A stretch of 49,599 nt of DNA from Fidelibacterota bacterium (GTDB lineage Bacteria > Fidelibacterota > UBA8477 > JABMPR01). The DNA lies in NCBI GenBank assembly GCA_013202495.1, contig JABMQQ010000181.1, positions 1 to 49,599 of the forward strand. Reading direction: 5' to 3'. Shown here piece by piece: positions 22,401 to 37,613 of the stretch; the stretch's first letter is position 1; each line of letters starts with the position of its first letter. The translations under genes were made by a program, and so were the position numbers. The notes under the pieces are model-generated. The model had not been told where the DNA came from. It ran no database searches and was given only the letters and a program-made list of their open reading frames with translations.

Positions 22401-22598
22401 AGGAATCATATCAGTTGGATATCCAAAGACGGAGTGCCATATATTTCCAGACCCGTCTACTGCCACCCCATGAATTCCATGAGAGTTATCAATTTCCAGG
22501 TCGTATTCTACAAAGAGTTCTTCAAATTGCCATTCGTCTCCAAGTAGGGGGCAGGTCCCTAGCAACAGGATTAACAATATACCGCGTAGACTAGTCAT
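19449..22598 (-). CDS. Large T9SS-exported surface protein: propeller, two cohesin-like domains, beta-helix
   Basis: The 1049-residue protein has a signal peptide (about 1-20, ending PLLGDE). Domains in order: a beta-propeller of NHL/SMP-30 style repeats (about 40-335, e.g. AVDGSGNIWH, SPDGRTMYVGDFG); two cohesin-like beta-sandwiches (about 341-440 and 476-580) sharing the motif LYISAAGAEEISG / VYIASAGS; a right-handed beta-helix of the pectate-lyase/DUF1565 type (about 614-905, with SGNDSTGTGSSEQPYATIQ at its start); and a FlgD-like type IX sorting domain (about 956-1049, NFPNPFNPSTSIEF). It is probably attached to or released from the cell surface. It follows the other cohesin-bearing gene by 8 nt and is co-transcribed with it. 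No catalytic residues could be assigned. The cohesin call rests on sequence pattern only. Confidence 0.85.
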   Translation of the reverse strand: MTSLRGILLILLLGTCPLLGDEWQFEELFVEYDLEIDNSHGIHGVAVDGSGNIWHSVFGYPTDMIPDENGDSLEIFQIFIQTSDGADLEFSPISVLFLGDSTYPLVAGCRGITTTPDGSILYAMNSSLYKINSSTGALLAAFEYPEGGSIGKPAVDETGRVYVGRVTSNYPVYMLTSDLEIIGTTIDSRPNISRGAAVSPDGKDLYCGTVWVGDGISHYHSDLPGIFPHELVGNIGGWFIQDDSTNIQELWAEDVALGPDGYLYAANTQIEFSNDVEHGSRWYIYDPVTGAELGEFGVPLGEPQAGGTFNGRGIDWSPDGRTMYVGDFGYNSIGIWSWISEADSIFVLKVDSVSIFPGDTIGLPIHIETPLEEALSSLDMQFTAITDDYEITGVDLTAGALSENGWQIESNIIDSTLYISAAGAEEISGNEIIFELEFTVAGDANPQFIPIVPTIVYINEAAPVTFSSGGINILGEGFLSVGLPQLTIPAGSSFLLPIQAFLTQGFRLTSIEVSIGGFNEDILFHGLRSGSGLLYDNNWLIEANQSEDRVYIASAGSQLIYESGDLFYLECSISLQAELGHQDVSIRSLRINDGASNVDASGGGINIIEAIGDRLLHVSRISGNDSTGTGSSEQPYATIQFAVNQAVAGDTVMVDVGAYHENIVMPGVDMVLGSRVIQDPDYGYEALTFIIGATIGSGIRYESGETETSQLIGFTFSSSQANHGGAIACINSSPTISKCNIISNTTQTNLESGSSGGGIYLHNSSSKLQHLQIFDNTGNATYSEEGGGGGIAITNGSSIEMDSCAISWNVASPYGGGIVVIDSYLRLNQCTVVFNSLHSGGSQLWVDGISHVEIQNSILDGEWSIIETASSSQANIDISFSCIPGGLDAITQNGTTVISWDNSNIVDPPLFCQPMSWEHTLAENSPCAWMSTTGSYIGAFPVGCGPVAILGDGPMRPIAYSLEQNFPNPFNPSTSIEFALPQVSLVKLVILDVLGREIKTLRHETLQPARYTDIWDGRNESGDMLPAGIYFARIQAGKYTSTVKMLLLK

Positions 22599-22606
22599 GA
22601 ATCGTC

Positions 22607-25555
22607 CTAGCGGATGTAAAGCATTTTAATAGCAAATGACTTATGGCCATTATCCACGATGCATAGGTACACCCCTGCTCCTATGTTCCTGGATTTCATC
22701 ATTTCAGGGGACCATTCGAACTGATGCCAGCCTGCTGCTCTCCAGTGGCGACTTTGTTGGTAAACCTGACGACCCGTAATATCAAATATGGCGATGCTCG
22801 TCCAGCCCGCTTCAACCAAACCAAATTTTATTTGAGTACTGGGGTTGAAGGGATTGGGATAGTTCTGCTTTAGCTCAAAACGATGGGGGAAAATAGCATC
22901 AGCACTTGAGGTGGTCCCAAATAGAATAGTCGTTGCAACATTTTCCGCGACATCTCCTTCATTGAGACGATATTTTGCCAGACTTATTTCAGCACCGTCC
23001 TCTATTGGACCATTTACAAAGCTAAAATTCAGAAGGAGAATTTCCTGATCAAAACTGATTGGAACCGTGGAGACCAGCACAACTCTGCTACCATTTTCAC
23101 TGGTACGCTCTTCCAGTGTGAAATGCTCCATGGCTTCCGGGAGTGTGACCTGGTCCAGATTTAGCTGTTCCAAATCATAGCCTAGTTCCAGCTCCATTGA
23201 AAACATATTTTCTACAGATTGTATGATGAGGGGCACCTGGTAATCGCTGTCTAAACCCAGGCTGGGTGAGTCAAAGTCGAGATTACCCGAGGCCAGTAGT
23301 GAAGCGGCTGAAGAATCGACAGGTAGTTCCTCGAGCAGATGGACCAGATATTGGAGAATAATTGAGGCATCTAGAGCAGAGAGACTGCCATCCAGACTTA
23401 CATCCCCATTGGCCGTCTGTTGATCAGTGAGGGTTATATAGCCCACCAGATGTTTCAGAATCAGAGCGGCATCATAAGCTGAAACATATCCAGACAAATT
23501 CACATCACCATATTCAACCGGCGGCCGAATATCCACACCACCATCCACAATATCTAATTCCATCCCATCCACATCAAATAGCGCATGAATAACTTCAATG
23601 GCGGAGAATCCAATATCTGCACCTTCTGGAATACTCAACAGCAGATCAAACAGAATCACCGAGCCAGAAATTTCATCGCTTCCAGCCGCTGCGATACTGA
23701 GTACTCCTACGCTGTCCAAAGCATATTCCAGGCTCCAGGCTCCAGTGGCTACTGGAATCACATCCATGAGTTCAAGGTTCTGGGTAAATCCACTCAGATC
23801 AAGTTCTAAAGAAGTAATAGACGAATCCGGGGGGAGCTCAATGCTGATAGAAAGCCCAATCTCCGTCCCTGGAATACTCTCGGTCGTTGCCACCCTCAAA
23901 GTGGCTGTAGTATCAATTTCAACGATGAGACCAAAATCATAATTCTGGAAATAGATCAGGTTAACATAGTCTTCGGGACCCCCTGGAGGATCAATGGATG
24001 GACGGGAATAATCAGGGATCTCATACATCAATTGGATCTGACCATTCTCCGCAATACGAGTCATATGGGGGAACACCTCATCCACCACACCATCGTTGGT
24101 CATGGTCACATTCTCAGGTTCCGACCAGGAACCACCTCCATCGAGGGAATAGCTGGCTAAAATATTCATATCGGCATAATCCTGACCCAGGTCATTGATT
24201 CCCAGGTGGGTTGTGCTAAAATAGGCGAGATAAAGCGCATCGGGGAAGACCACATCATAGGCTGCACTGAGAACATTGTCTTGCCACGAGGGAGCATCGT
24301 ATGACCACCCCATTTGCATTGATGCGACGAAAGAGATATCCATAATTACAGGACCTGCTTCACCCACAAATGCACTAGATGAACTTGAGAAGTGATAAAT
24401 TCCATTGGCTTCAGAATAATAGGGGTAGACGCCTGCCTCGGCTGAGGGAAGGACAGGTGCCCATACATGAAGTTGACCGTTTGGATCAGATAGAACCTCC
24501 ATATCATAACCGATGAAGGGTGCCCAGATCCCTGGCGAGCCTCCACCGGGATAAATCCATTGATCATTTTCTTCGATATAGACACTATCGGGCATAACAT
24601 CGTCGAAGTAGGCGTTCGAGGCTTCATCTGGAAGATGATACCATCCACTCCATGTGGCCCCATAATCATCTGTTTTTTTTATGAACAGGGTATGATTTTT
24701 TATCTGAACCGGATCAGCCCAATATGCACTGGTCACAAAGTATCCTGTTCCAGCTGCATTGATATCCATCTTGCCATTTGCTATGTAGTTGGCCTCATTT
24801 ACGCTGAGAAAATCTACGGGATTTAGAAGTAGATAGCTGTCAGAGTATTGCAGGGGTGTGCCAGACCAGGGACTGGTCTCAGTGGTCCAGAACAGGTACT
24901 TCGAGTTATTCAGGGACCAATCTGTAGCCATTGTGTTAAAAGTGATATCCCCAGTTTCGTTTTCAGTGACAACCGAATTGACCATCCAATTGTCATGGGC
25001 GAAGGGGTCATTATCCACATCGGACGGGATGCTCCAATCGCTCCCAGTATAGCCCCCGCTATTTACAGCATGATAGGCCCGTCCATCATAGTCGCCCCCA
25101 CCACCTCCGTATTCATTCCAGAAGACAATGGGATAGGTGCTGGTGGCTATTGCAGATGGATAACGTCCAATATCGGCAAGATTGATATTTGAATGAGTCA
25201 TCCATGATTCACCACCATCATTTGAGATTGATGCAGCGATTTGTCCTGAGCCCGCTCCTTCAACATATTGGCGATAGGCCATGACGATCTGATCCCGATT
25301 GAAGGGGTTGGCAGCAATTGTGTTTATTTCTGAAGCGATGAAACTGTAGCCATTTCGTGAGGAGTCCACTACCAAAGCATCTCCTTCCCTCAGACTGGTA
25401 AGGCGAGCTCCTATAGGTGGATCGATATTGACGAGCAGGTTTAATGGTTCAATTCTGTTGATTAATTCGGGTGAAACCACATCAGTTGTGGCAATTGGAC
25501 TAATAGCGAATAGAGAGCCTACCAAAAGCAAACAGATTATAGAATATCGAATCAA
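22607..25555 (-). CDS. Large T9SS-exported protein: sialidase-like propeller, cohesin-dockerin-cohesin
   Basis: The 982-residue protein starts at TTG 25555 (SD AAGGGGGA, 6 nt upstream), giving signal peptide MIRYSIICLLLVGSLFA. The N-terminal half (about 50-540) has Asp-box repeats of the sialidase/BNR propeller (SNDGGESW, TDDYGATW, SLDGGGSW). Then come a cohesin-like domain (about 550-675, with LSIAAAGSDEISG), a type I dockerin (about 681-745; calcium loops D-V-N-L-S-G-Y-V-S-A-Y-D and D-V-S-L-D-G-S-L-S-A-L-D), a second cohesin-like domain (about 755-880), and a type IX sorting tail (about 889-982, NYPNPFNPSTQIKF). Carrying both halves of a cohesin-dockerin pair, it could act as an adaptor scaffold. 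It is the first gene of the two-gene operon. Enzymatic activity is uncertain. Confidence 0.85.
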   Translation of the reverse strand: MIRYSIICLLLVGSLFAISPIATTDVVSPELINRIEPLNLLVNIDPPIGARLTSLREGDALVVDSSRNGYSFIASEINTIAANPFNRDQIVMAYRQYVEGAGSGQIAASISNDGGESWMTHSNINLADIGRYPSAIATSTYPIVFWNEYGGGGGDYDGRAYHAVNSGGYTGSDWSIPSDVDNDPFAHDNWMVNSVVTENETGDITFNTMATDWSLNNSKYLFWTTETSPWSGTPLQYSDSYLLLNPVDFLSVNEANYIANGKMDINAAGTGYFVTSAYWADPVQIKNHTLFIKKTDDYGATWSGWYHLPDEASNAYFDDVMPDSVYIEENDQWIYPGGGSPGIWAPFIGYDMEVLSDPNGQLHVWAPVLPSAEAGVYPYYSEANGIYHFSSSSSAFVGEAGPVIMDISFVASMQMGWSYDAPSWQDNVLSAAYDVVFPDALYLAYFSTTHLGINDLGQDYADMNILASYSLDGGGSWSEPENVTMTNDGVVDEVFPHMTRIAENGQIQLMYEIPDYSRPSIDPPGGPEDYVNLIYFQNYDFGLIVEIDTTATLRVATTESIPGTEIGLSISIELPPDSSITSLELDLSGFTQNLELMDVIPVATGAWSLEYALDSVGVLSIAAAGSDEISGSVILFDLLLSIPEGADIGFSAIEVIHALFDVDGMELDIVDGGVDIRPPVEYGDVNLSGYVSAYDAALILKHLVGYITLTDQQTANGDVSLDGSLSALDASIILQYLVHLLEELPVDSSAASLLASGNLDFDSPSLGLDSDYQVPLIIQSVENMFSMELELGYDLEQLNLDQVTLPEAMEHFTLEERTSENGSRVVLVSTVPISFDQEILLLNFSFVNGPIEDGAEISLAKYRLNEGDVAENVATTILFGTTSSADAIFPHRFELKQNYPNPFNPSTQIKFGLVEAGWTSIAIFDITGRQVYQQSRHWRAAGWHQFEWSPEMMKSRNIGAGVYLCIVDNGHKSFAIKMLYIR

Positions 25556-25670: not shown

Positions 25671-26069
25671 TTATTTCCGGCGGAGCCGCTGGATTAGGGG
25701 TAAAACATCTTCTTGTTCTTTTTGGAGGGGTTGGGTCGTGTCCACCCATTGCTGGTCTACTGGCTCGACAGGTGGATCAGGTATTTCTTCCAGCTCTTCA
25801 TCAAGTGCATCTGGCTCAACAACAGCAGGGTCAACAACAGCAGGGTCAACAACATCATTAAACATGCTGCCTTTGCCCAAAATTAGCCAGTTAAAATCGA
25901 GGTCATACTCTTCTGAGAGGGGCACTAGTTTGGTACATTTGATTTCCCGCTCACCCATTTCCCAATAAATGATGGTTCGTTTTCCAAGGCCACAAAGACT
26001 GGCTACTTCCCGCTGAGTAAGTCCAACAGCTGCTCGAAATTCCCTTAATCGCTCTGCTACAGGTGACAT
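25671..26069 (-). CDS. XRE-family helix-turn-helix regulator with acidic/proline tail
   Basis: I chose ATG 26069 (GAGGA just upstream) over TTG 26093, giving 132 residues. The N-terminal 60 residues form a CI/Cro-type helix-turn-helix (LTQREVASLCGLGKRTIIYW) followed by a KLVPLSEEYDLDFNWLILG segment common to phage-type repressors. The C-terminal half is low complexity and acidic, with an imperfect VVDPA repeat and many Pro and Glu. No peptidase or effector domain is visible. It is divergent from the TonB-receptor gene with about 190 bp between their starts, so it could control that gene, itself, or both. No phage genes are nearby. Confidence 0.85.
   Translation of the reverse strand: MSPVAERLREFRAAVGLTQREVASLCGLGKRTIIYWEMGEREIKCTKLVPLSEEYDLDFNWLILGKGSMFNDVVDPAVVDPAVVEPDALDEELEEIPDPPVEPVDQQWVDTTQPLQKEQEDVLPLIQRLRRK
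25816..25855. repeat. 15-bp tandem repeat inside the XRE gene
   Basis: The unit TCAACAACAGCAGGG occurs twice in full (25816-25830 and 25831-25845), then partially to 25855. As a multiple of three it adds or removes five residues (VVDPA) without breaking the frame, so copy number may vary between strains. Confidence 0.9.
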
Positions 26070-26209
26070 GTTTCCTCGATTTTTGAACTGCAATAATATG
26101 CACCCTAAATCCTGCGAACAAAAAAGGAAAATGGGACATATTTGAATTCATTCATGAAAATTTCCTCTTTCAGGAGGTGAGCTCGAGATTAAAACAAATT
26201 GGTCTCTTC

Positions 26210-26226
26210 TTCAACTTAGTGTTGAA
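26210..26226. promoter_or_regulatory. Inverted repeat in the XRE/TonB-receptor intergenic region (candidate operator)
   Basis: TTCAAC and GTTGAA form a perfect 6-bp inverted repeat with a 5-nt spacer, 29 bp before the TonB-receptor start. Its size suits a dimeric helix-turn-helix protein such as the divergent XRE regulator. Binding is inferred from position only. Confidence 0.35.
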
Positions 26227-26255
26227 TCTCAAATGATGATTCCCATATTCGCTGT

Positions 26256-28772
26256 ATGAAAGAACTTCGACTTCTCGTTCAAACAATCCTGTTTCTTTCC
26301 CTGTTTTCTGTGACTCTTGCCAGACAAAACGTGCACGGATTTATTCGCGAAAATGAAACTGGCGAACCTCTACCCTATGCCAATGTTATTCTACCAGAGT
26401 TAAATCGCGGTGCCACATCCAATGTGGAGGGCTATTTTGTCGTCAGTAATCTTCCAGTTGGAACCCATAAACTCATTGTATCCATCATTGGTTATTCCGT
26501 ACATGAACAGACCATTGAATTACCTGCAGACCTCAATCTACGACTAGATATCAGATTGGATCAGTCCATTATTGAAGGCCAGTCAATTGAAGTGAGTGCC
26601 GAGCGGGAAAAATTCAAGGAGTTGGTCAGTACCAGCACGGTGACACTAGACCGTCGAGCTATCGAAGTTGCCCCATCTTTTGTCGAAGCCGATGTCTTTC
26701 GTGCTCTACAGTTGCTCCCTGGAGTCCAATCGCTCAATGATTTTTCCTCCGCTCTTTATGTCCGCGGGTCCACCCCCGATCAGAACCTGATCATGTTGGA
26801 TGGGATCACGGTTTACAATCCCATGCACCTCGGTGGTATTTTTTCAACCTTTAACACAGATGCCATCAAGGAAGCCGAATTCCATGCCGGTGGTTTCCCT
26901 GCTCAATACGGGGGACGTCTCGGATCAATTCTTAATATTGTAAACCGTGAAGGCAATACAGAGGAGTTGACAGGGAGCGCGAATATTTCTCTTATCTCAA
27001 GCAAAGCTCTGATCGAGGGCCCCTTGCCTACCTTTGGTTCCAACTTATTAAAAGGCTCATGGATGGTTGCTGGGCGTCGCACATATTTTGATGTTATTGC
27101 CAATGCTTTTTATAAGCGAATCGTATTGCCACGACTTGATCCAGTTGACCGGATGGATTCACCAAAAAATATTTTTCCATATTATTTTTATGATTTCCAG
27201 GGCAAGGTAAATCTGGATGTGGGAAGCGACCATCGCCTTACCTGGAGCTCATTTTATGGAGATGACGTCTTGAATTGGGACTACCAGGATGACTATTCTT
27301 CAGACGATTGGGAGGATGAAGGTTGGGATGATGGGGATTATTATTATGAGGAAAGTGACAGCAGTGTATTTGATTGGCGTTGGGGAAATTTTACCAATAG
27401 CCTGAGCTGGCGTTGGATAATTTCACCAAAATTGATCGCACGAACCTTTATCGCCAATAGTCGCTTCCGATTTGCTGTAGATTTTGACTTTGCAGATGAG
27501 AGCTACTCTCGAAGTGAGTATGACACTTCCAGCTATCAATCTGCCTTTGGCTTTGATCTATTTGATCGCATCAACGACAATAGCGTTGAATCTAATTTAA
27601 CCTGGCTGGCAAACGATGCTCACAACGTGCTAGCTGGTTTTCAGCATAAAGAGGTACATTTCCAGTTGGGAATGATACTTGGTGCAGAGGAAACCTATAA
27701 CGGTGTAAAAGAGACTTTTCGTGATACCATTATGTGGATGGAATCAAGACCAGCAGAGTCAGCCATATACATCCAGGATAAATGGGAAATGAGTCCACTC
27801 CTTTCCCTACAAACGGGTTTGCGCGTCGCCAGTTATTCTCTACATGACACGACTTATTTTGAACCACGTCTGGGTCTCAAATATTTTCTTTCAGAGAACG
27901 TTTCACTCAAGGGTTCTGTGGGTCGATATCATCAATTTCTGACTGTGGCCAATCCACCCGACGAAAATTTGAGATTTCTGGATATCTGGTTTGGCATTCC
28001 GAAAGACCGGCCAGCTCCCCGATCTGATCACTATATCTTCGGGATCGAATATTTAAGTGATTCTGATATTCTAGTTCGCACCGAGGCCTATTATAAATCA
28101 TTTGACAATCTCCTGACACTCAAACCGACAGATCTCATTGCTGTGAACGAAGAAGATCAATTGATAATTGATCCATTTAATGAATTTTGGGACACAGATG
28201 CCTATGCCCAGGGATTGGAAATTCTGGTAAAAAAACTTTCTGGAAAAGTCCGTGGCTGGGCGGGTTATACCTATGCGCAAACCAAGCGGAAGTATGAGGG
28301 TCAAGATTGGTATTTCCCCAAGTATGACAGAACACATACTCTTAATGTAGTAGCGGATTGGGCTCTCAATGATGCCCTTCACTTTAGTACAGCCATCACG
28401 TATTCCAGTGGAAATCCTTATACAGCAGTCATTGGTAGAACAGAGACCTGGGAAGATCGTGCGTGGGATCTGGACAACTCATGGTTCAACCGAGAGACTT
28501 TTCTCTATGGAGAAAAACATGGAGTGCGCTATCCAGGATATTTCCGGTGGGATGTAAGCTTTAAGAAGCGGAAACCCTTTCTCAGTGGACACCGTGAGTG
28601 GTATTTCCAGATTTTAAATGTGACGAATCACTTAAATGTCTTTAGCTATTTTTATCGCAATGATGGGGGGTACAATTACAGAACCTACGAGAAGGAGAAC
28701 AAAGGTGTGCAGAGACTTGGTATTCCCATGTTTCCATTTTTACCAACATTTGGGGTGAAATTTGAATTCTAG
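26256..28772 (+). CDS. TonB-dependent outer-membrane receptor
   Basis: The 838-residue protein has a signal peptide (about 1-22), a carboxypeptidase-like regulatory domain (about 24-105: GFIRENETGEPLPYANVILP, then GYFVVSNLPVGTHKL), a plug domain (about 115-235, with LQLLPGVQSL and YVRGSTPDQNLIMLDGITVY), and a 22-strand-type barrel to a C-terminal Phe (FGVKFEF). It imports a scarce ligand (siderophore, oligosaccharide or similar) using the TonB-ExbBD system. It resembles the receptors paired with DUF4249 lipoproteins rather than a SusC of a full polysaccharide locus, since no SusD or glycoside hydrolase is present. The DUF4249-like gene follows after 72 nt. The substrate is unknown. Confidence 0.92.
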   Translation: MKELRLLVQTILFLSLFSVTLARQNVHGFIRENETGEPLPYANVILPELNRGATSNVEGYFVVSNLPVGTHKLIVSIIGYSVHEQTIELPADLNLRLDIRLDQSIIEGQSIEVSAEREKFKELVSTSTVTLDRRAIEVAPSFVEADVFRALQLLPGVQSLNDFSSALYVRGSTPDQNLIMLDGITVYNPMHLGGIFSTFNTDAIKEAEFHAGGFPAQYGGRLGSILNIVNREGNTEELTGSANISLISSKALIEGPLPTFGSNLLKGSWMVAGRRTYFDVIANAFYKRIVLPRLDPVDRMDSPKNIFPYYFYDFQGKVNLDVGSDHRLTWSSFYGDDVLNWDYQDDYSSDDWEDEGWDDGDYYYEESDSSVFDWRWGNFTNSLSWRWIISPKLIARTFIANSRFRFAVDFDFADESYSRSEYDTSSYQSAFGFDLFDRINDNSVESNLTWLANDAHNVLAGFQHKEVHFQLGMILGAEETYNGVKETFRDTIMWMESRPAESAIYIQDKWEMSPLLSLQTGLRVASYSLHDTTYFEPRLGLKYFLSENVSLKGSVGRYHQFLTVANPPDENLRFLDIWFGIPKDRPAPRSDHYIFGIEYLSDSDILVRTEAYYKSFDNLLTLKPTDLIAVNEEDQLIIDPFNEFWDTDAYAQGLEILVKKLSGKVRGWAGYTYAQTKRKYEGQDWYFPKYDRTHTLNVVADWALNDALHFSTAITYSSGNPYTAVIGRTETWEDRAWDLDNSWFNRETFLYGEKHGVRYPGYFRWDVSFKKRKPFLSGHREWYFQILNVTNHLNVFSYFYRNDGGYNYRTYEKENKGVQRLGIPMFPFLPTFGVKFEF

Positions 28773-28844
28773 GCTAGCAAATGAAACCACGAATTACGCC
28801 AATTTCACAAAAAGGTTTACAGCAAAGTCTTTACGAGGAATGAA

Positions 28845-29870
28845 ATGACGAAGCAATCTAATCTTGATGCCCACCACAAAATCCTGAAAGTGAGACTGGC
28901 TGGACTACTCCTCATTTTCTTATTTATCACATCCTGCGGTAACTGGGGCTGGGAAGCCATTGACACAGACAATGATGAAAAATTGAATGTATTTGGGCTC
29001 ATCAGTCTGGACGATTCTGTGTCCAGCTTTGTGATCGTCCATAAAACCCTGGATACCGCTGGACCTGATGCGGAAATAGTCGGGTATGACACCATTTATT
29101 ACGAATCTTGGGAATGGTATAATGAAGACACCGGTATGTTCCAGAGGGACACTTTCTGGTACGACCCTCCAGAAATCAGATCCCTGAGTGAATCACTTTA
29201 TATTGTGAAAGATGCTGATGTCACTATTTCTGACGGATCACAGAGTTATTCATTCATCAGGAGTCCCCAAGATCGGAGCGGAGAGAATTACTGGTATCGT
29301 GATATATTTAGTGATTCTGCCCTTTATCTGAACACAGATGGTAGTTTTACACCCCTCCCAAATACAGAATACACACTGACCGTCACAACTCCAGGAGGAC
29401 ATAATCTCACCGGTTCTCTGATGACCCCAGCTCTACCTAGAATTAGAAGCAGCGAATTAGCTGATACCGTTTCAATCAATAGTCTTTTTGATGTGACCTG
29501 GAGCTACGATGGAGATTTTAATACAACTATTACCACTGGAATTGCCTCACAAGATTGGGAGCGACAAGTTTGTGGGATCAACCAGTTTGGCTTGATGGAA
29601 CCAGGAGATACAACCTGGACATCCTCAGTTGATTCATGGTGTCTTGAAGTCAATCAGAGCGAGGATATGGTCTCCCAGATGGGTATCAGGCTGCGATATC
29701 TGGATGAAAATTACTATCGCTACTTCCTATCAAGTGATCCTGAGCTCGAAGCTATTTCTAATTTTCTCATCGGTGAAGGCAATATTGGCACAGCCTATGG
29801 GGTTGAAGGTGGATTTGGTGTATTTGGAGCTATGAGCGCCGATTGGGACAGTCGTTACGCCACACCTTAA
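28845..29870 (+). CDS. DUF4249-like outer-membrane lipoprotein
   Basis: The 341-residue protein begins with a basic arm and a lipoprotein signal peptide ending in the lipobox LFITSC (Cys about residue 30). The ATG at 28845 has SD GAGGA 5 nt upstream; an ATGAAATGA mini-ORF overlaps the SD. The mature protein has the DUF4249 layout: an early NVFGLISLDDSVSSFVIVHKT strand pair, a VKDADVTISDG block, then PNTEYTLTVTTPGGHNLTG. DUF4249 lipoproteins sit next to TonB receptors in Bacteroidota and are thought to act as their surface partner. It ends 1 nt before the stop of the convergent cytochrome gene. Confidence 0.75.
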   Translation: MTKQSNLDAHHKILKVRLAGLLLIFLFITSCGNWGWEAIDTDNDEKLNVFGLISLDDSVSSFVIVHKTLDTAGPDAEIVGYDTIYYESWEWYNEDTGMFQRDTFWYDPPEIRSLSESLYIVKDADVTISDGSQSYSFIRSPQDRSGENYWYRDIFSDSALYLNTDGSFTPLPNTEYTLTVTTPGGHNLTGSLMTPALPRIRSSELADTVSINSLFDVTWSYDGDFNTTITTGIASQDWERQVCGINQFGLMEPGDTTWTSSVDSWCLEVNQSEDMVSQMGIRLRYLDENYYRYFLSSDPELEAISNFLIGEGNIGTAYGVEGGFGVFGAMSADWDSRYATP

Positions 29871-29871
29871 A

Positions 29872-31800
29872 CTACTTCAACAGGACTATTTTAGAATCAG
29901 CGTGTAGCACTATTGGAGAGCCCATCTCTCTGAATTCCACTTGTACCAGATAAATTCCTGCTTCCAGAATCCACCCCTGTGAATCTTTCCCATCCCAGGT
30001 GTACTCCTGTAAACCACTGACCTGATTGATGCTATGGATTTCAGTTACCCGTATACCCTGTATATCAAAGATGCTTAGTTTAATATCTCCATCCTCTGGA
30101 AGTGAAACCTGGATGTTGGTTTCTGGATTAAAGGGATTTGGGTATGCTTGCACCAGCAGCTCAGATTCAGGGGTTTGGATTCTAATCCCACTCGTTGAAA
30201 TAGTATGTCCAACAATTGCGATGGGGATAGGCGACAGATCCATTTGTTCGTAATAAGACTGAAATTCATCAACTTCAGGCAGATCGTATTCAAATAGATC
30301 CTGGGCAAAACGTGGAGCTATGGTCTGATAGTTCATGGTAGCGCTGATGTGATAAGACACATCTGATGTTAGCCCACCTACGCGATAGTGGACTTTATCC
30401 CTCCCTGTACCCTCCTCAAGGCCGTTTTGATTGAAATCGGGGTCCTGGGTCGCTAAACCTGTAATGCTTGTAGAATCCGCTGCTACACCATCTGAGAGAT
30501 ATCCCACAGGAGGGATTCTATTGTCTTTTAGATACCCTGCGATTCTCAGGAGTGTGTAGGTCTTATCACTATTCACATCCCTGGGTATGTTCTGATAAAT
30601 TTGGACCTGATCCTGATCATTGATACTCTGGCGATGTTGTTCGTAGCCTGGATCCAATCCAATAATTTCTCCAGTAGCATCCCAGGCACCGGAATGGAAT
30701 ACAATATTCCCTGATTGATCCTCAACTTTAACCTCTAACCAGGCTCTTCTACTGGGATAGGCCGTCGGAAATTTATGCCCGGAAAGATTTTCAACATCAA
30801 CTTCGATAGTCAATGAATCCGTCATGACATTCCAATCAGTGGTAAGATTTAACCTCACAGATTGTCTCTCTAAAAGTCTCATACTTCTATCGATAGTTGA
30901 ATCAAAATGAGCTTCCGATGCCGTGACTCCCAACTCATCCCCGAAATTTTTCAGCATTTTCAGCATAAACACATTTCCACCCACAAATTCATGTGTATGA
31001 AGTGGGTTACGTGAGCCCAACCACTGTGGCCGATTTGACAATACTATATTTTCTTCGATTGCAGGCATATGACAGGTCTGGCATTCAATGCCCAATTCGG
31101 GATAATCACTATTTAACCACTCCAGATAAGGTACTTGTTCTGGAGCCTCCCCTACTACTTCGCCCTCATCATTCACATAGGGTGTAAAAAGGGTGTGGCA
31201 GGTTGCACACAATTCAGAACTGGAGATGTGAGGACTCATGGTTGGCGTGTAATTCGCCATGGTTGCCATGGGTCCAACAACAGGATTGCTAAAAGGACCA
31301 TAAATAAGTCGGCTATCTTCGATGGTAAAATGACCTGAAAAGCTCTCGCCCTGCCCCAGGTCTTGATCCTGTATCTGGTGACAAACTGCGCAACTCACCC
31401 CATCCATACCAAGGGGACTCTCCAGCATTTCAGCAATCGTATAGTCCGGCTGTCCATCATATCCTGCCTGAGTGTTGCCCATAGGGGCGTGACAACTTGT
31501 ACATTTATCTTCAATAACGCTCTGCAATTGAGGGTTTGAAGCTATTTCTGCCTGCACTTTAGCCTGCCAGAGTGGGTCAGTGGCCGCATTCGCCATCATG
31601 GTGGATCGCCAGTATGTTGTTGGAGACACATCTTTTCCATGGCTGTCGCGTAAGGCCGCTGTATTAGGACCAGCCTGAGTATGGCAAACTGCACAAGAAC
31701 CTGAACCTGAGAACAGCGTGCTGGTTTCTGTTGGTAATGACTGGGCGAATAAACCTGAGACACAGACTGACAGAATGAAGATTTTATTGATCAGATGCAT
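29872..31800 (-). CDS. Pentaheme cytochrome c with type IX secretion sorting tail
   Basis: The 642-residue protein has a signal peptide (MHLINKIFILSVCVSGLFAQ) and five CxxCH heme-binding sites at residues 36-40, 100-104, 137-141, 198-202 and 240-244. These fall in an N-terminal half resembling the cytochrome c554-type multiheme family. A beta-sandwich region (about 290-520) follows. The C-terminal 90 residues are a FlgD-like sorting domain (YPNPFNPETNIQVSLP, then a final KIVLLK). The protein should be loaded with heme in the periplasm and then sent through the outer membrane, ending on the cell surface or outside. No oxidoreductase partner is adjacent. Extracellular electron transfer is possible but unproven; a catalytic role is also possible. 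Confidence 0.88.
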   Translation of the reverse strand: MHLINKIFILSVCVSGLFAQSLPTETSTLFSGSGSCAVCHTQAGPNTAALRDSHGKDVSPTTYWRSTMMANAATDPLWQAKVQAEIASNPQLQSVIEDKCTSCHAPMGNTQAGYDGQPDYTIAEMLESPLGMDGVSCAVCHQIQDQDLGQGESFSGHFTIEDSRLIYGPFSNPVVGPMATMANYTPTMSPHISSSELCATCHTLFTPYVNDEGEVVGEAPEQVPYLEWLNSDYPELGIECQTCHMPAIEENIVLSNRPQWLGSRNPLHTHEFVGGNVFMLKMLKNFGDELGVTASEAHFDSTIDRSMRLLERQSVRLNLTTDWNVMTDSLTIEVDVENLSGHKFPTAYPSRRAWLEVKVEDQSGNIVFHSGAWDATGEIIGLDPGYEQHRQSINDQDQVQIYQNIPRDVNSDKTYTLLRIAGYLKDNRIPPVGYLSDGVAADSTSITGLATQDPDFNQNGLEEGTGRDKVHYRVGGLTSDVSYHISATMNYQTIAPRFAQDLFEYDLPEVDEFQSYYEQMDLSPIPIAIVGHTISTSGIRIQTPESELLVQAYPNPFNPETNIQVSLPEDGDIKLSIFDIQGIRVTEIHSINQVSGLQEYTWDGKDSQGWILEAGIYLVQVEFREMGSPIVLHADSKIVLLK

Positions 31801-31853
31801 ATTCCCTCAATTTTAGATTCTATCTGGCTAAAATAATCCTCCTGGGGGTAATT

Positions 31854-31886
31854 AAAAGCACGAGCCCCAGTAAAACTGGAGCTCGT
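31854..31886 (-). terminator. Rho-independent terminator after the Spy-like gene
   Basis: On the minus strand a 12-nt stem (31875-31886 with 31860-31871, one mismatch, loop of 3) is followed by GC and TTTT (31857-31854). It closes the transcript of the calcium-repeat / barrel / Spy-like operon, 43 nt past the last stop. Confidence 0.85.
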
Positions 31887-31928
31887 ATGCAGGGAGGAAG
31901 TCCTCAAGAAAGGACAACAACTAATGAT

Positions 31929-32408
31929 TTATGGCCTATTTCCTCTTCCAGGACGGTGCCCACGACGACCACCACCCATATCATCATTTCCACCACGAGG
32001 TCCTCTAGGTCCGCGTCGTCCTTCACGGGGTCCAAATTCATGCTGATCAAAAATCAATTGTTGATCTGGTGTCAGCAGAGATCTGATCTGGGTCCGATGC
32101 GCACCCATCAGAGCCTCAGCAGCTGTCCGATTGGCTTCAATCGCCGCTTCAAGTTCGGCAATTCTATCAGCATCGGGATTTTCGCTGTTATTGAGCAGTC
32201 TCAGCTCTTGCTCCAGTGAACGTGTGGTTTGACGAATTTCCTGCATGCCAGGTTGCATGCTCTCACGGAGGGCTGTAATCTGTTGCATCTGTTCGGTTGT
32301 TAAATTCAAGCTTTCATCCCAGGTCATTTGAGAACCACCGCCGCGGCGGCCCTGACCCATTACAATTGTCATAGAAAGTAAAATGAGAATAAATAATGTA
32401 CGTTTCAT
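31929..32408 (-). CDS. Spy/CpxP-like LTxxQ periplasmic protein
   Basis: The 159-residue protein has a signal peptide (about 1-18, ending VMGQ), a helical core with two LTxxQ-type motifs (LTTEQMQQI about 36-44 and LTPDQQLIFDQ about 112-122), and a Gly/Arg-rich tail (GRRGPRGPRGG, GGGRRGHRPGRG). In enterobacteria Spy and CpxP are envelope-stress chaperones or sensors controlled by two-component systems. SD AAGGAG precedes ATG 32408 at 7 nt. It is the last gene of an operon headed by a sigma-54-like promoter, next to a two-component system, which suits a stress or metal-response role. The basic tail is unusual and might bind nucleic acid, polyanion or membrane. Confidence 0.85.
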   Translation of the reverse strand: MKRTLFILILLSMTIVMGQGRRGGGSQMTWDESLNLTTEQMQQITALRESMQPGMQEIRQTTRSLEQELRLLNNSENPDADRIAELEAAIEANRTAAEALMGAHRTQIRSLLTPDQQLIFDQHEFGPREGRRGPRGPRGGNDDMGGGRRGHRPGRGNRP

Positions 32409-32420
32409 GCTACTTCTCCT

Positions 32421-33632
32421 TTAGTTATTAATATTTAGAGTAATTCCATAGTTCATACTCGTATAGTCATACAGGGGATCATTGGAAATATTCTGAGTCC
32501 ATCCTGTATTCACGAGCATTTCAATATCTGAAAACCAGTTACTATGATCCTGACCCAAATCCAGGCTCCAACTCATTTGAACTTTTTGCTTTTTATCTGA
32601 GCGGTCAAAACCAAGATCCTTATAAGCGTCATTCTCAATGACATAGCTCATACCCTCAAAGTCAAATTCATATACAGGAACATCCCTGTATCTTTTTTCA
32701 TCAAAAACATAAATCAACTTTAATTTCTGTCTGGCACCCATTCGATATAATAAGCGCAATGATGCAGAGGGACCTTCACTCCTGAACCTGTCAATAAATG
32801 GGTTATTTAAACCATCCTGTAAGGCCAGGGCACTGGCATCTTCATTGATGAGGGATTGATAATCCAGCCACAATGTTGCACCGAGTTTGGGACCAAGAGC
32901 CTGGCTGAGTCTCAGCTTGGTTTCAAAAAGATAATTATCAGGAATGGAGTCAACTTCGATTGCACGGGTAAACCTGCCTGGAAGTTGATCATCTATTACG
33001 ATCTGTGGCCAAAAGTTTTGATAGGCCAGGGAAGTCCTGAGATTTACTGAGGTCTTTGTATTGAAAGACTGGTTATAGGTAAGATATATCTCATGATCTG
33101 AATTTGAGGCTTCGGTAACCTCCTCAAAGCGATTAAAATTCAAATCATAACCACCAATGAACAGCTGTGAGGCTTTGAGGTAGTATTTCCATTTCAAATA
33201 CATACCAAAACCACTGCTGTTATAATAGCTATAGCTATCATGGAAGCGGTTTAAGTAAGCGAATAGACCAGCAAAGATCTGGTTATCCTTGATATCGAGA
33301 TAGCGAAGTTGAAGACCGAGCTCTGCGTCAGAATTTGAATATTCAGCAAATGGATATATCTGTGAGTGTGAGACATCAATATATGCCCTAGAATTGTCTG
33401 AGAGAATTGAGCTGAGAGAGAATGCATTTGAGCTATAGGAGGCATCGGGAACCAATTTGCTTCCCAATAAATACTCAGCCGTCCCAAATGAATTATCAAA
33501 AGTGTAGGTAAATTCACCAGCAGTTACTGGACTGCCAAACAAAGATAAGCCGCTGATTACAGCTACTAAGATTGCTCTGAAATTGATACGCTCTGGTTTG
33601 CTTATTAACATAGTTTGATTTGAGTTTTTCAT
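32421..33632 (-). CDS. Outer-membrane beta-barrel protein of unknown function
   Basis: The 403-residue protein has a long N-terminal arm before a signal peptide (hydrophobic core about 19-35, ending SPVTAG). A true start at the internal Met8 (MLISKPERI) is possible. The mature part consists of repeated amphipathic strands rich in Tyr, Ser, Asn and Phe (e.g. YLDIKDNQIFAGLFAYLNRF), as in an outer-membrane barrel of about 14-18 strands. It ends YGITLNINN, without the usual terminal Phe. I do not recognise a family. It lies between the calcium-repeat gene (43 nt upstream) and the Spy-like gene (12 nt downstream), so all three are co-expressed. A strong hairpin sits just before its start codon. 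Confidence 0.7.
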   Translation of the reverse strand: MKNSNQTMLISKPERINFRAILVAVISGLSLFGSPVTAGEFTYTFDNSFGTAEYLLGSKLVPDASYSSNAFSLSSILSDNSRAYIDVSHSQIYPFAEYSNSDAELGLQLRYLDIKDNQIFAGLFAYLNRFHDSYSYYNSSGFGMYLKWKYYLKASQLFIGGYDLNFNRFEEVTEASNSDHEIYLTYNQSFNTKTSVNLRTSLAYQNFWPQIVIDDQLPGRFTRAIEVDSIPDNYLFETKLRLSQALGPKLGATLWLDYQSLINEDASALALQDGLNNPFIDRFRSEGPSASLRLLYRMGARQKLKLIYVFDEKRYRDVPVYEFDFEGMSYVIENDAYKDLGFDRSDKKQKVQMSWSLDLGQDHSNWFSDIEMLVNTGWTQNISNDPLYDYTSMNYGITLNINN

Positions 33633-33636
33633 GGAA

Positions 33637-33665
33637 GTTGGGGGAGGAAGATATCCTCCCCCAAC
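33637..33665 (-). promoter_or_regulatory. Intercistronic hairpin abutting the barrel-gene start codon
   Basis: A 12-bp perfect GC-rich stem (33654-33665 with 33637-33648, loop of 5) ends 4 nt before ATG 33632 on the minus strand. No T run follows. It would bury the only SD-like GGAGG upstream of the barrel gene, so it may lower translation of that gene or protect the upstream mRNA. Confidence 0.6.
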
Positions 33666-33675
33666 ATCACATCAA

Positions 33676-34185
33676 TTAGTTGGCGTTATTCACTTTACCA
33701 GTGGACTTTTGGGGAGCAACTGGATCTGGGAGACAATCACCTGACCCAGGACCATTGCCGCCACCAAAACCAGGACGACCACCACCGTGGCCACGCCCAC
33801 CGCCATCTTGTGGTGGTACAAAGTCATCATCGGCATGATTTGGAATACCATCACCATCGTCATCTGGTGCATTATCGTTATATCCATCACCGTCTTCATC
33901 TACGAACCCACCAGCACCGGGACCATTCCCACCACCTTGACCACCTTCTGGTGGTACATAATCTTCATCTGCATAATTGGGAATGCCATCACCATCATCA
34001 TCTGGTGCCAAATCATTGTAACCATCACCATCTTCATCGATGAATTCACCAGGACCGTTACCACCGCCACCGAAATCACCATGACCATTTCCCCACTGAC
34101 CACCCTGGGCATAAACCGGGCTGGCAATTGCGAATAAGCTGATCGCTACTGCCATCATCATCACCGTTAAGAGTTGCTTTTTCAT
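33676..34185 (-). CDS. Secreted calcium-binding (thrombospondin type 3-like) repeat protein
   Basis: The 169-residue protein has a signal peptide (about 1-27, ending PVYAQG) and two near-identical 46-residue units. Each starts DEDGDGYND, then PDDDGDGIPN, then a Gly/Pro/Asn-rich linker (units at about 48-93 and 94-139). The D-x-D-G-D-G loops are calcium-binding motifs as in thrombospondin type 3 repeats and EF-hand-like loops. A Gly-rich tail with one Cys (residue 151) ends the protein. SD AAAGGAGAAA precedes ATG 34185. It is the first gene of the operon behind the sigma-54-like promoter. It may be an extracellular or periplasmic calcium-dependent structural protein; no enzyme domain is present. 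Confidence 0.8.
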   Translation of the reverse strand: MKKQLLTVMMMAVAISLFAIASPVYAQGGQWGNGHGDFGGGGNGPGEFIDEDGDGYNDLAPDDDGDGIPNYADEDYVPPEGGQGGGNGPGAGGFVDEDGDGYNDNAPDDDGDGIPNHADDDFVPPQDGGGRGHGGGRPGFGGGNGPGSGDCLPDPVAPQKSTGKVNNAN

Positions 34186-34237
34186 ATCGTTTCTCCTTTG
34201 TTAAATTTTTCTGCTTCAAAAAAGCTGCCCTCTATAG

Positions 34238-34253
34238 TCCAATCTCTGTGCCA
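34238..34253 (-). promoter_or_regulatory. Sigma-54-type promoter (-24/-12)
   Basis: On the minus strand TGGCAC (34253-34248), five nt, then TTGGA (34242-34238) matches the sigma-54 consensus TGGCAC-N5-TTGCA with the exact spacing and one C-to-G change in the -12 element. Transcription would start near 34227, about 40 nt before ATG 34185. The adjacent response regulator is of the sigma-54-activating class, which supports the call. Confidence 0.65.
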
Positions 34254-34342
34254 GTTACTACCCCTCTCATAACATTGTTATCTATATTACTGTTATTCAT
34301 ACACTTATCGATATTCATGCAATTAATTTGATTATGAATATG

Positions 34343-34379
34343 TTCGACAAAACACGTCGAATTCGACAAAATTGTCGAG
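34343..34379. promoter_or_regulatory. Cluster of TCGA-centred palindromes (candidate NtrC-type activator sites)
   Basis: Within 37 bp lie three overlapping dyads: TTCGACAA (34343-34350), the perfect 12-bp palindrome GTCGAATTCGAC (34356-34367), and TTGTCGA (34372-34378), which forms a dyad with the TCGACAA at 34363-34369. They begin about 90 bp upstream of the sigma-54-like promoter, a usual position for enhancer sites bound by Fis-domain activators. Confidence 0.55.
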
Positions 34380-34419
34380 AAATCACCTATTTAATTATTG
34401 TTAAGAAGATCCTGGGATT

Positions 34420-34538
34420 GTCACCCCGAGCGGAGTCGAGGGGTAACGGACATAGGTATAATTATCCTTTTGTATGACGAGGCTAAATTCAGTTTATGTA
34501 TATAAGGATTGTTATCTCTCGACTCCGCTCGAGATGAC
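34420..34538. repeat. Dispersed inverted-repeat element, copy 2
   Basis: Arms at 34420-34441 and 34517-34538 are inverted complements with two mismatches and a 75-nt spacer. The left arm is identical to the left arm of the element at 4624. It lies between the response-regulator stop (34570) and the activator-site cluster. The spacer differs from that of copy 1, so only the arms are conserved. Confidence 0.85.
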
Positions 34539-34569
34539 AAAGGGTCACACTTTTGGAAAATAAGTAATT

Positions 34570-35901
34570 TTATTTAAGGTTGTACTTCTGAAGTTTATAG
34601 CGGAGAACTCGTTCACTGATTCCAAGTTGTCGAGCACATTCACTCTGATTCCCCTCCGCTTCTTCAAGGGTGTTTTTAATCAGATCAACCTCCAGACCAC
34701 CGACAGAATCCTTAAGCTTCCCTGAGGTGATCTTCTCCTTTGCCTTACTCTTCAGGTTAAGTCCTTCGGCTAAAATCTCAGGTCCCTGACAGAGAAGCAC
34801 GGCGCGTTCGATGAGGTTTCCCAGTTCGCGGACATTCCCCGGGAAGTGATATGCCTCCAAAGCCTCCAGAGCTTTGCTGGAAAGTATCATTTCAGATCGA
34901 CCTTCTCGGGCAGCAAATTTTTCAAAAAAATATTCTGACAATACCTTGATATCATCAGGTCTGCTCCTCAGGGGTGGTATCTCAAGATTTATGACATTTA
35001 ATCGATAATATAGGTCTTCCCTAAACTCTCCAATCTCAATGGCATGGAGCAAATCCACATTGGTGGCTGCTATGACCCTGACATCTGACTTGAAGACCTT
35101 GTTCTCCCCAATTCTCTGGAACTCTCCACTCTGCAAAAAACGTAGGAGTTTGGTCTGCATCTCCAGGGGAAGATCACCAATCTCATCCAGAAAGAGGGTC
35201 CCAGTGTGGGCTTCCTCAAAACGACCCACTCTGGTAGCGGTTGCTCCTGTGAATGCGCCTTTCTCATGTCCGAACAGCTCACTCTCAATAAGATGACTGG
35301 GAAGGGCTGCGCAGTTCACGGCTACCACGGGGTGTTTACCTCGAGGGGAATGCTGATGTATATATTCAGCAAGAACTTCCTTACCTACTCCGGTTTCTCC
35401 CGTTATAAGGACAGTGACCTGACTGTCAGCCACACGCTTTGCCTGTTGGAGTAATCCTAGCATGACTGAATCCCTGGCAAGGAAACCCAGCTCCCCTGAA
35501 TCTTGTTCCAAGGAGATATTGTGTGGATTTTGTGAGGTATGGATGTGATCCTCGATGCCGTTGAGCAGAATTTCAAGCTGATCCAGATCAACGGGTTTGG
35601 TCAAGAAGTCCCAGGCACCAGATTTCATGGCATTTACGGCAATATCCACTGTGCCAAAAGCAGTGATCAGAACCAGAATCACATTGGGATGGCGTGACTT
35701 TACTTCTTTTAACAGATCAGCACCTGTCATATAAGGCATTTTATAATCAGACAAAACAATGTCAACTGGATGCTTATACATATGAGCCAGCGCAGTTTGA
35801 GCAGACTCGGCTGTACTCACATCATATCCAATTTTCTTTAGAAATCCAGCGAGAGACTCCCGTTGGAGTTGTTCATCATCGACGATCAGTATTCTGGTCA
35901 T
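34570..35901 (-). CDS. NtrC/AtoC-type sigma-54-dependent response regulator
   Basis: The 443-residue protein has a receiver domain (1-120; acidic Asp8/Asp9, phospho-acceptor Asp52 in LSDYKMP), an AAA+ domain (about 140-375) with Walker A GETGVGKE (168-175), the sigma-54 contact loop GAFTGA (215-220) and Walker B TLFLDEIG, and a C-terminal Fis helix-turn-helix (NQSECARQLGISERVLRYKL). On phosphorylation such proteins form a ring that remodels RNA polymerase-sigma-54. Its ATG overlaps the histidine-kinase stop by 4 bp. The next operon downstream on the same strand has a sigma-54-like promoter with upstream dyads, so it is the natural target. Confidence 0.95.
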   Translation of the reverse strand: MTRILIVDDEQLQRESLAGFLKKIGYDVSTAESAQTALAHMYKHPVDIVLSDYKMPYMTGADLLKEVKSRHPNVILVLITAFGTVDIAVNAMKSGAWDFLTKPVDLDQLEILLNGIEDHIHTSQNPHNISLEQDSGELGFLARDSVMLGLLQQAKRVADSQVTVLITGETGVGKEVLAEYIHQHSPRGKHPVVAVNCAALPSHLIESELFGHEKGAFTGATATRVGRFEEAHTGTLFLDEIGDLPLEMQTKLLRFLQSGEFQRIGENKVFKSDVRVIAATNVDLLHAIEIGEFREDLYYRLNVINLEIPPLRSRPDDIKVLSEYFFEKFAAREGRSEMILSSKALEALEAYHFPGNVRELGNLIERAVLLCQGPEILAEGLNLKSKAKEKITSGKLKDSVGGLEVDLIKNTLEEAEGNQSECARQLGISERVLRYKLQKYNLK

Positions 35902-37613
35902 TGTGTCACCGGCAATTCTATTTCGAAAGTTGTCCCTTCACCAGGATGACTCGTCACTTCAATCGTCCCATGGTGGTCTGCGATTATTTTATGGGTCAAT
36001 GCCAGGCCCACACCAGTACCCATATCCTTGGTTGTATAATACAAATCAAAAATGCGACTGAGTTGATCCTCAGCAATTCCGGCTCCAGAGTCAATGATCT
36101 TTACGATTATCATATCACCCTTTTTCTGACCCTCCAGATTGATGCTCGCTCCAGATTCACAGGCGTCCAAAGCGTTTCGAACCAGATTGGATATTGCCTG
36201 TCTCAAATATTCTGCATCTGCATCAAATTGGAGCGTACTGGCCTGCACTGTCAGGGATATGTGTTGTTCCATGGCTTCTGATTTATACAAATCCTGGATG
36301 CTGTTTAAAAACTGCATCAGATCGAGAGTTGAGAAATTGAGGGAGGTCGGTCTGGTATACTCCAGGAAATCTTGGAGAGATTCATTTATGCGCGATATTT
36401 CTGAGACCATGGTGCCAGTGAGCGATTCATATTCCTGCTGATCTTCACCAGTTGAAAATTCGCGTTTCAGCCGCTGCGCCACAATTCCAATGGCATTGAG
36501 TGGATTACGTATTTCATGGGCCACACCAGCTGCAAGCTCTCCCACCGCCGCCTGCTTCTCTCGCAGTCGATTCAATTTCTCCAGCCTATAAACTTCTGCT
36601 TCTATCCGCTTCTTCTCCTCTTCCAGCAATGCTGAATTTTGTCGAGCCAGTAAAAATATAAGAAGCACAAAGGCGAGCAGAGTAAAGAGGGTGGTACGAA
36701 TGAGAATTTGATAGACGATTTGACCTTTTAGACTCAAGAGGGTATCCGCTTTAAATCCAATACGCACTTCCCCCAGACTTGAGTTAAAAAATACAGGACG
36801 AACCACTTCCAGCAGACTGGTGTCTCCTTTGGAAACCTCAAAGAGGATATCAGCAAGGGGCTTGCGGGTCCAGGTATCGTCAATCTTTTCCCCAGACTTT
36901 GAAACATAGTATGGCTCACGGTCATCCAGCGCCAACTTCAGATATTGCAAGCCATTTACATGTAAAAGGTCTTCCAGGGCAGATTCCATGGCGGTGAGAT
37001 ATTTAAAATTTTGCTCAGCCTCCATTGACAACTGACAGGTGATTACACCACCCCTTTCTCTGGGGATAGCTACCAAAAATTGATCTTCAATACTGTCAGT
37101 GGGGGTGACAGGGTCCGCCTTTTGATCAACCCCGACAATGAGTAGTTCAGTTTTCCTGGATAAAATCGGCTGTAGCTGATTTTGGAGCCACGTATTGTCC
37201 TGGTCTATTTCAGCCGGGGTATTTGTTTTTGAAGCTGTTTTATAGCCGACATCCTTTTTCCCATTACTATCATAGGTGGAGATATCCATGATAGTTTCAT
37301 CATTCACCCATTCGTCCAGGTCACTTCTTGATAGCTCCTGTTCTTTATCTATATGGTTCAAGATACTGAGCATATCGATGGCTCTATCGATATAGGATTG
37401 CTTTAACTCCTCTGTGAGATAGGCTTGACCACTGCCACTCTGCGCAATCACTGCGGCGGTCATGGCAGATTGATCCTGAATGAGCTGCAAAACGTCACGA
37501 TACCTGGATTGATATTCTAGATAACTGGATAAAATAAGTAGGGTGAGAACAACAACGTATAATCCGATATACCAAGGATTTAGTTTTAAGATGTTTTTTA
37601 CAGCTCTCAGCAA
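35898..37613 (-). CDS. Membrane-bound sensor histidine kinase
   Basis: The 571-residue kinase starts at TTG 37613 (GGGGA 5 nt upstream). TM1 is at about 15-33, a periplasmic sensor domain of about 240 residues follows, and TM2 is at about 285-310. After a short coiled coil comes the HisKA H-box AHEIRNPLNAIG (His366), then the ATPase domain with N-box NLVRNALDA, G1 DSGAGIAED and G2 GTGVGLALTH. It phosphorylates the coupled NtrC-type regulator. The sensor domain resembles a Cache-type fold but its ligand cannot be told. Context (Spy-like, barrel and calcium-repeat genes downstream) suggests an envelope or metal signal. Confidence 0.93.
   Translation of the reverse strand: MLRAVKNILKLNPWYIGLYVVVLTLLILSSYLEYQSRYRDVLQLIQDQSAMTAAVIAQSGSGQAYLTEELKQSYIDRAIDMLSILNHIDKEQELSRSDLDEWVNDETIMDISTYDSNGKKDVGYKTASKTNTPAEIDQDNTWLQNQLQPILSRKTELLIVGVDQKADPVTPTDSIEDQFLVAIPRERGGVITCQLSMEAEQNFKYLTAMESALEDLLHVNGLQYLKLALDDREPYYVSKSGEKIDDTWTRKPLADILFEVSKGDTSLLEVVRPVFFNSSLGEVRIGFKADTLLSLKGQIVYQILIRTTLFTLLAFVLLIFLLARQNSALLEEEKKRIEAEVYRLEKLNRLREKQAAVGELAAGVAHEIRNPLNAIGIVAQRLKREFSTGEDQQEYESLTGTMVSEISRINESLQDFLEYTRPTSLNFSTLDLMQFLNSIQDLYKSEAMEQHISLTVQASTLQFDADAEYLRQAISNLVRNALDACESGASINLEGQKKGDMIIVKIIDSGAGIAEDQLSRIFDLYYTTKDMGTGVGLALTHKIIADHHGTIEVTSHPGEGTTFEIELPVTQ

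Follow-up and report, generated by a model that had tools for sequence, protein, structure and literature searches.

A pentaheme cytochrome c with a type IX secretion tail in Neomarinimicrobiota and other phyla

Multiheme cytochromes and the sorting tails of the type IX secretion system (T9SS) are each known, and it is their combination, kept across phyla, that is new. Multiheme cytochromes are known to reach the outside of Gram-negative cells through lipoprotein export, type II secretion or porin conduits. The protein described here is encoded by a marine bacterium of a little-studied phylum, on a stretch of DNA of 49,599 nucleotides analysed as a whole (the window); the nearest named relatives of the host are Candidatus Neomarinimicrobiota MAGs (95% identity). 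The body of the protein belongs to the pentaheme cytochrome c552/PHC family, its C-terminus is a T9SS type A tail, the genome holds the T9SS core genes, and the same fusion recurs in relatives, restricted, with one exception, to genomes bearing SprA. On balance, we regard it as probable that a c552/PHC member has been turned into T9SS cargo; it would most likely work at the surface, oxidizing or reducing metal or metalloid ions or another small substrate.

In the open-access literature, searched through titles and the starts of abstracts, with subscription papers and preprints outside its scope, no description of a T9SS-borne multiheme cytochrome was found, nor any paper joining a multiheme cytochrome with type IX secretion. 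The available text of a survey of outer-membrane multiheme cytochromes contains none of the terms 'type IX', 'secretion' and 'sorting' (PMC11475568). A 2023 review of T9SS effectors, in its available part, restricts CTD proteins to the Bacteroidota and does not use the word 'cytochrome' (PMC10202324); in contrast to that restriction, SprA gives strong matches in Neomarinimicrobiota, Calditrichota and KSB1.

The gene and its surroundings are listed in Table 1. An earlier note had placed five CxxCH sites and a C-terminal sorting tail on one protein, and this holds exactly to the base. Shuffling of the protein's own residues rules out a chance origin of the five motifs, as three or more were reached in 0 of 200,000 shuffles. 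The C-terminus scores 30.6 bits with TIGR04183 (cut-off 23) and 38.3 bits with FlgD_ig PF13860 (cut-off 27), and the score with PF18962 falls slightly short of the cut-off of 27 in the protein scan (25.6 bits) but exceeds it in the whole-genome search (28.4 bits). An HMM built from the genome's other 148 tails recognizes the protein with an E-value of 1.2e-27. In the predicted structure, model residues 541-641 match the CTD of PorU (6za2; Z 10.7 over 96 residues, rmsd 2.6). The model has a mean pLDDT of 75.2, falling below 50 around residues 136-195 (the heme 3 region), and starts at residue 2, so that protein numbers are model numbers plus one. Of the 'FlgD-like sorting domain' named in the note, the sorting domain stands, as a type A tail over the TIGR04183 cut-off, and the FlgD likeness comes down to the Ig-like fold; an identity as a FlgD protein proper was rejected, this fold being all that is held in common.

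Table 1. Features of the cytochrome gene and its neighbours in the window
Feature	Position	Strand	Remark
Pentaheme cytochrome c with T9SS type A tail, 642 aa	29872..31800	-	ATG 31800, stop 29872
Sec-type signal peptide, residues 1-20 (...VSGLFAQ)	31741..31800	-	By eye from translation
Heme motif 1, CAVCH, residues 36-40	31681..31695	-	
Heme motif 2, CTSCH, residues 100-104	31489..31503	-	
Heme motif 3, CAVCH, residues 137-141	31378..31392	-	
Heme motif 4, CATCH, residues 198-202	31195..31209	-	
Heme motif 5, CQTCH, residues 240-244	31069..31083	-	
Beta-rich Ig-like domain, c552/PHC family, ~residues 313-534	30199..30864	-	Model strands
T9SS type A sorting tail, ~residues 541-642	29875..30180	-	HMMs and structure match
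Terminator-like stem, 13 pairs, between LTXXQ and cytochrome genes	31859..31887	-	Consensus match only
LTXXQ/Metal_resist (Spy/CpxP-like) periplasmic protein	31929..32408	-	Neighbour kept in genus
Outer-membrane beta-barrel, 16 long strands predicted	32421..33632	-	Conserved neighbour
Asp/Gly-rich secreted protein, no Pfam match	33676..34185	-	Conserved neighbour
Sigma-54-dependent response regulator	34570..35901	-	Conserved neighbour
Sensor histidine kinase	35898..37613	-	

The host assembly (3.95 Mb, 86% complete) was searched for the translocon, and SprA (728.1 bits, together with its neighbour in frame), PorU (674.3 bits) and several PorV proteins (up to 203.6 bits) are all over their curated cut-offs. 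Since these core genes are present, the outcome that the earlier note had named as refuting it, their absence, does not apply. Cytochrome c assembly proteins are also encoded, three of them over cut-off. The GldM/PorM motor (TIGR03517) gave 0 matches in this genome and was matched in one of the 19 genomes searched; as two genomes with SprA above 1,500 bits (G458 and G502) are likewise without a match, the model may be narrow or another motor may be in use. SprA is strong in Neomarinimicrobiota and Calditrichota and the GldM model finds nothing there, and T9SS outside the Bacteroidota may therefore run on another or a very divergent motor.

All frames behind the 149 T9SS tail matches of the genome were fetched, and the window protein, with its five CxxCH sites, is the only multiheme protein among them: 147 have no such site and one has a single site. 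This last, a 951-residue tailed protein (G000:C230:35740-35976 and upstream), carries its CxxCH near the mature N-terminus and is perhaps a monoheme surface cytochrome. Elsewhere in the genome, contig C8 (L120:671-11230) holds genes with 11, 11, 12 and 4 heme motifs, with a tailed 958-residue protein among them; one 11-heme protein is in part DmsE-like (75 bits, cut-off 192) and one, also with 11 hemes, is fused to a cytochrome b part resembling formate dehydrogenase gamma (64 bits, cut-off 116). In the window itself, positions 19449-25555 encode two adjoining proteins with T9SS tails, possibly a surface pair: a dockerin type I domain is found in one, and cohesin is weakly matched by the other (23.0 bits, cut-off 24.1).

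The family of the cytochrome body was assigned by profile and by fold. A search of solved structures with a profile built on 27 relatives gave a single protein, cytochrome c552 of Thermochromatium tepidum (5ze8, E 1.1e-15), and the predicted model matches the same entry with a Z of 18.5 over 331 residues, the next row reaching only 12.2. The two proteins share a beta domain C-terminal to five CxxCH hemes; 5ze8 covers model residues 25-533 of the window protein only, and in the aligned WxxxMxA segment its counterpart of the window protein's Met69 is a histidine. The ExtKL/PHC proteins of Geobacter and cable bacteria likewise combine a pentaheme part with an Ig-like domain, and match the window protein weakly through NF040886, the ExtKL equivalog model, with 24.7 bits against a cut-off of 250, on which ground ExtKL proper was rejected; the available parts of PMC11976967 and PMC5877670 mention no T9SS tail on these proteins, whereas the window protein has one. 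PHC, ExtKL, c552 and AvECN are linked in the available part of PMC11976967. Weak domain similarity also extends to the OmcA/MtrC type, like the window protein a surface multiheme cytochrome by prediction; the window protein differs in having five hemes and a different predicted signal for reaching the surface, and OmcA/MtrC decaheme proper was rejected (TIGR03507, 16.1 against 209.3 bits). With the T9SS type A cargo of Bacteroidota the protein shares the type A CTD and, in its genome, SprA, PorU and PorV; unlike that cargo, it is multiheme and its host lies outside the Bacteroidota.

The earlier note had proposed a search of relatives for the same fusion, and this search was productive, with the tail found in several phyla. 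Membership was defined by three CxxCH plus the motif GH[KSN][FIL]P in a frame of more than 350 residues, giving 67 proteins, after leaving out L032 (contig end), L036, L038, L039 and L203 (outside the definition) and the repeats L146-L151, L153, L154, L176 and L205-L207; contig ends truncate L156 and L183. The tail HMM recognizes 39 of the 67 at E below 1e-3 and one marginally (L204, E 0.01), and 27 are without a tail. Tailed members come from Neomarinimicrobiota (11), Calditrichota (11 of 11), KSB1 (2), the Melioribacter phylum group (14) and one further source, and tail-less ones from Chloroflexota (4), Armatimonadota-type genomes (6), the Melioribacter group (13), Neomarinimicrobiota (3) and KSB1 (1). 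Family matches occur in 25 of 395 genomes of the Melioribacter group and in 11 of 40 of the Calditrichota group; the tailed Melioribacter relative is from a Melioribacter MAG, not from M. roseus itself. For the window's own phylum the search alignment (A2) contained the tail, and because of this tails flooded the search, so only its full-length or near-full-length orthologues, in 12 of 245 genomes, were used. On a tree of 66 rows, with L204 left out and L197 scored as tail-less, the tail state changes at least six times; one of the six is due to L197, which sits on a long branch and has an extension as long as a tail but unrecognized by the HMM. In one genome (G577, L216:7410-10994) two family members stand in tandem, one tailed (L178) and one tail-less (L202), a possible outer and periplasmic pair.

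Tails and translocon were then compared genome by genome. Tailed members are found in 38 genomes, 36 of which were tested for SprA (G255 and G259 were left out), and SprA is over cut-off in 35; the single exception is a Melioribacter MAG (G013) with a tailed member and no SprA match. Conversely, SprA gave no match in the four Chloroflexota genomes with tail-less members and none over cut-off in the six Armatimonadota-type ones, and the genome of the tail-less L037 (G029) has two SprA fragments, both below cut-off. On the other hand, SprA is encoded in 11 genomes with tail-less members that, judged by eye, seem anchored in a membrane, and in five further genomes with tail-less members (G312, G210, G577, G026 and G027). 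In the wide Bacteroidota group, 13 of the 28 members are tail-less although SprA is present in their genomes. The tail thus accompanies SprA, and SprA does not need the tail. Judged by eye, the tail-less L023-L025, L034, L035 and L037 have a lipobox and the tail-less Armatimonadota members a fibronectin-like extension; in addition, a Neomarinimicrobiota orthologue (L157, G210:C6) ends in a dockerin-like repeat and has no tail. That the same body carries different anchors in different lineages suggests that its placement in the envelope matters.

Heme ligands were taken from conservation alone because the model is weak around residues 136-195. In an alignment of 64 rows, leaving out the three most distant members, the only invariant histidines outside the CxxCH motifs are His270 and His342; among the 54 nearer rows His389 never varies, and His191 is present in 45 of 64. 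Met69 occurs in 62 of 64 rows and Met178 in all 54 nearer ones, and at the position aligned with Met69 the distant L034, L035 and L037 have the histidine seen in c552. With five hemes and three conserved candidate histidines, two hemes are probably His/Met, otherwise ligated or open. Read in this way, a heme enzyme without full bis-histidine ligation would be at least as likely as a plain wire, and the ligand pattern leans towards an enzyme over extracellular electron transfer. This conservation-based reading agrees with the published view of PHCs, which the available part of PMC11976967 groups as potentially catalytic, with pentacoordinated hemes. In three Dehalococcoidales relatives, an in-frame TGA directly follows the fourth CxxCH (CGTCH-U-VTTPC; L023:6511-6513, L024:5134-5136 and L025:2080-2082), with the reading frame open on both sides, and makes selenocysteine a candidate residue of these pentaheme cytochromes, in parallel to ExtKL. 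All three have a stem 3' of the TGA, but its stability does not exceed that of shuffled sequences (z -0.30 to 0.00).

Gene order is kept in four loci of the genus (L009, L010, L012 and L013), running kinase, sigma-54 regulator, Asp-rich protein, barrel, LTXXQ/Metal_resist protein, cytochrome; it is partial in L011, where the contig is cut, and is found in L014 without a recognized Asp-rich gene. All six genus loci also have a TonB-dependent receptor and a DUF4249 protein facing the cytochrome locus. Outside the genus, the regulator also stands beside the KSB1 relative L020 (45% identity) and in G341 (48%, with the kinase), and a barrel homologue adjoins the KSB1 relative. Co-transcription of the cytochrome with the LTXXQ and barrel genes was considered; a terminator-like stem intervenes, and the cytochrome gene may form its own transcription unit. 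Metal-related genes were noted in a scan of metal-looking neighbours, which is not an enrichment test, in five of 15 fetched regions with tailed or dockerin-bearing members and in L015. G670 has an RND pump accompanied by a P-II protein (CusA/CzcA model, 1162 bits, cut-off 701) and, by Pfam, a P-type ATPase. By Pfam alone, RND pumps also occur in G058 and G210 and a P-type ATPase in G692; the P-type ATPase of G703 matches a heavy-metal model (631 bits, cut-off 346), and L015 has FeoB and an iron-dependent repressor beside it. Metal neighbours are missing from most loci.

For the window protein we infer heme loading, export, surface location and substrate from these comparisons. The N-terminal signal peptide would direct Sec export, and in the periplasm the five hemes would be covalently attached before folding. 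Heme attachment ahead of export is the expected order, and every step of the route is drawn from established T9SS knowledge. The C-terminal beta-sandwich would then be recognized by the T9SS, the protein would pass through SprA with PorV, and PorU would remove the tail, leaving the protein attached to the cell surface or released. At the surface, catalysis would rely on at least one heme that lacks bis-histidine ligation, and redox partners would give or take the electrons. Export by the T9SS as such we consider highly likely, and action on metal or metalloid ions, taken by itself, is the likeliest single role, at somewhat less than an even chance. The earlier note had further suggested a route 'without porin-cytochrome conduits'; this finds no support, because the T9SS moves the protein and not electrons, and a protein outside must still exchange electrons with something. 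The genome, moreover, has many other multiheme proteins, the 11-heme DmsE-like one included.

That the tail is present on a protein that stays in the periplasm, or that this Ig-like domain is ordinary adhesion material, would fit the undetected GldM and the tail-less members in SprA-bearing genomes. Such a reading is improbable given a tail that exceeds the sorting-model cut-off and matches the genome's 148 others, the presence of SprA, PorU and PorV, and a distribution in which all Calditrichota members found are tailed and the Chloroflexota ones are not. If exported, the protein might instead serve extracellular electron transfer at the surface, either as a terminal reductase or as part of a wire, supplied by a conduit that is encoded elsewhere in the genome. 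The genome has 694 CxxCH-coding matches against 123 for a reversed-pattern control, and beside the relative L018 stand genes with 5, 13 and 17 heme motifs, of which the 17-motif gene has an N-terminus of NapC/NirT type. Among PHC kin, ExtKL belongs to a cluster linked to extracellular electron transfer and c552 has been related to archaeal cytochrome nanowires (PMC11976967, available part), and ExtKL is more abundant with Fe(III) (PMC5877670, available part). The window cytochrome, however, has few conserved distal histidines and no adjoining multiheme gene. Among the listed frames of window positions 26000-36000 there is no second multiheme frame, so that a shared operon with a second cytochrome finds no support there, and the barrel two genes upstream is predicted with about 16 strands (pLDDT 68). 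The MtrB barrel is larger, with 26 strands; the fold search with the neighbouring barrel returned two-partner-secretion and porin-type barrels and no MtrB-type entry among the matches listed, an absence that speaks neither way. A role in extracellular electron transfer appears rather unlikely, and ranks next after the metal reading.

An enzyme detoxifying a non-metal substrate, such as peroxide or a sulfur or nitrogen compound, would suit the possible open heme sites and the role in sulfur metabolism suggested for T. tepidum c552 (quoted in the available part of PMC11976967). We hold it to be unlikely, as no sulfur or nitrogen enzyme gene is recognized beside the cytochrome in the window and the recognized neighbours point to metals. 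A surface oxidoreductase exported by the T9SS is the reading we hold most likely.

The pairing of pentaheme body and tail across phyla suggests a surface redox enzyme that is placed by type IX secretion. A broader view, which we put forward as doubtful, is that the FCB group has, in pentaheme cytochromes exported by the T9SS, a second and widespread means of making the cell surface electroactive or metal-transforming; they would be matured in the periplasm, passed through SprA and fixed outside. If this were true, an exported cytochrome may pair with a periplasmic tail-less twin, as the tandem in G577 would allow, or may assemble like its nanowire-forming archaeal kin.
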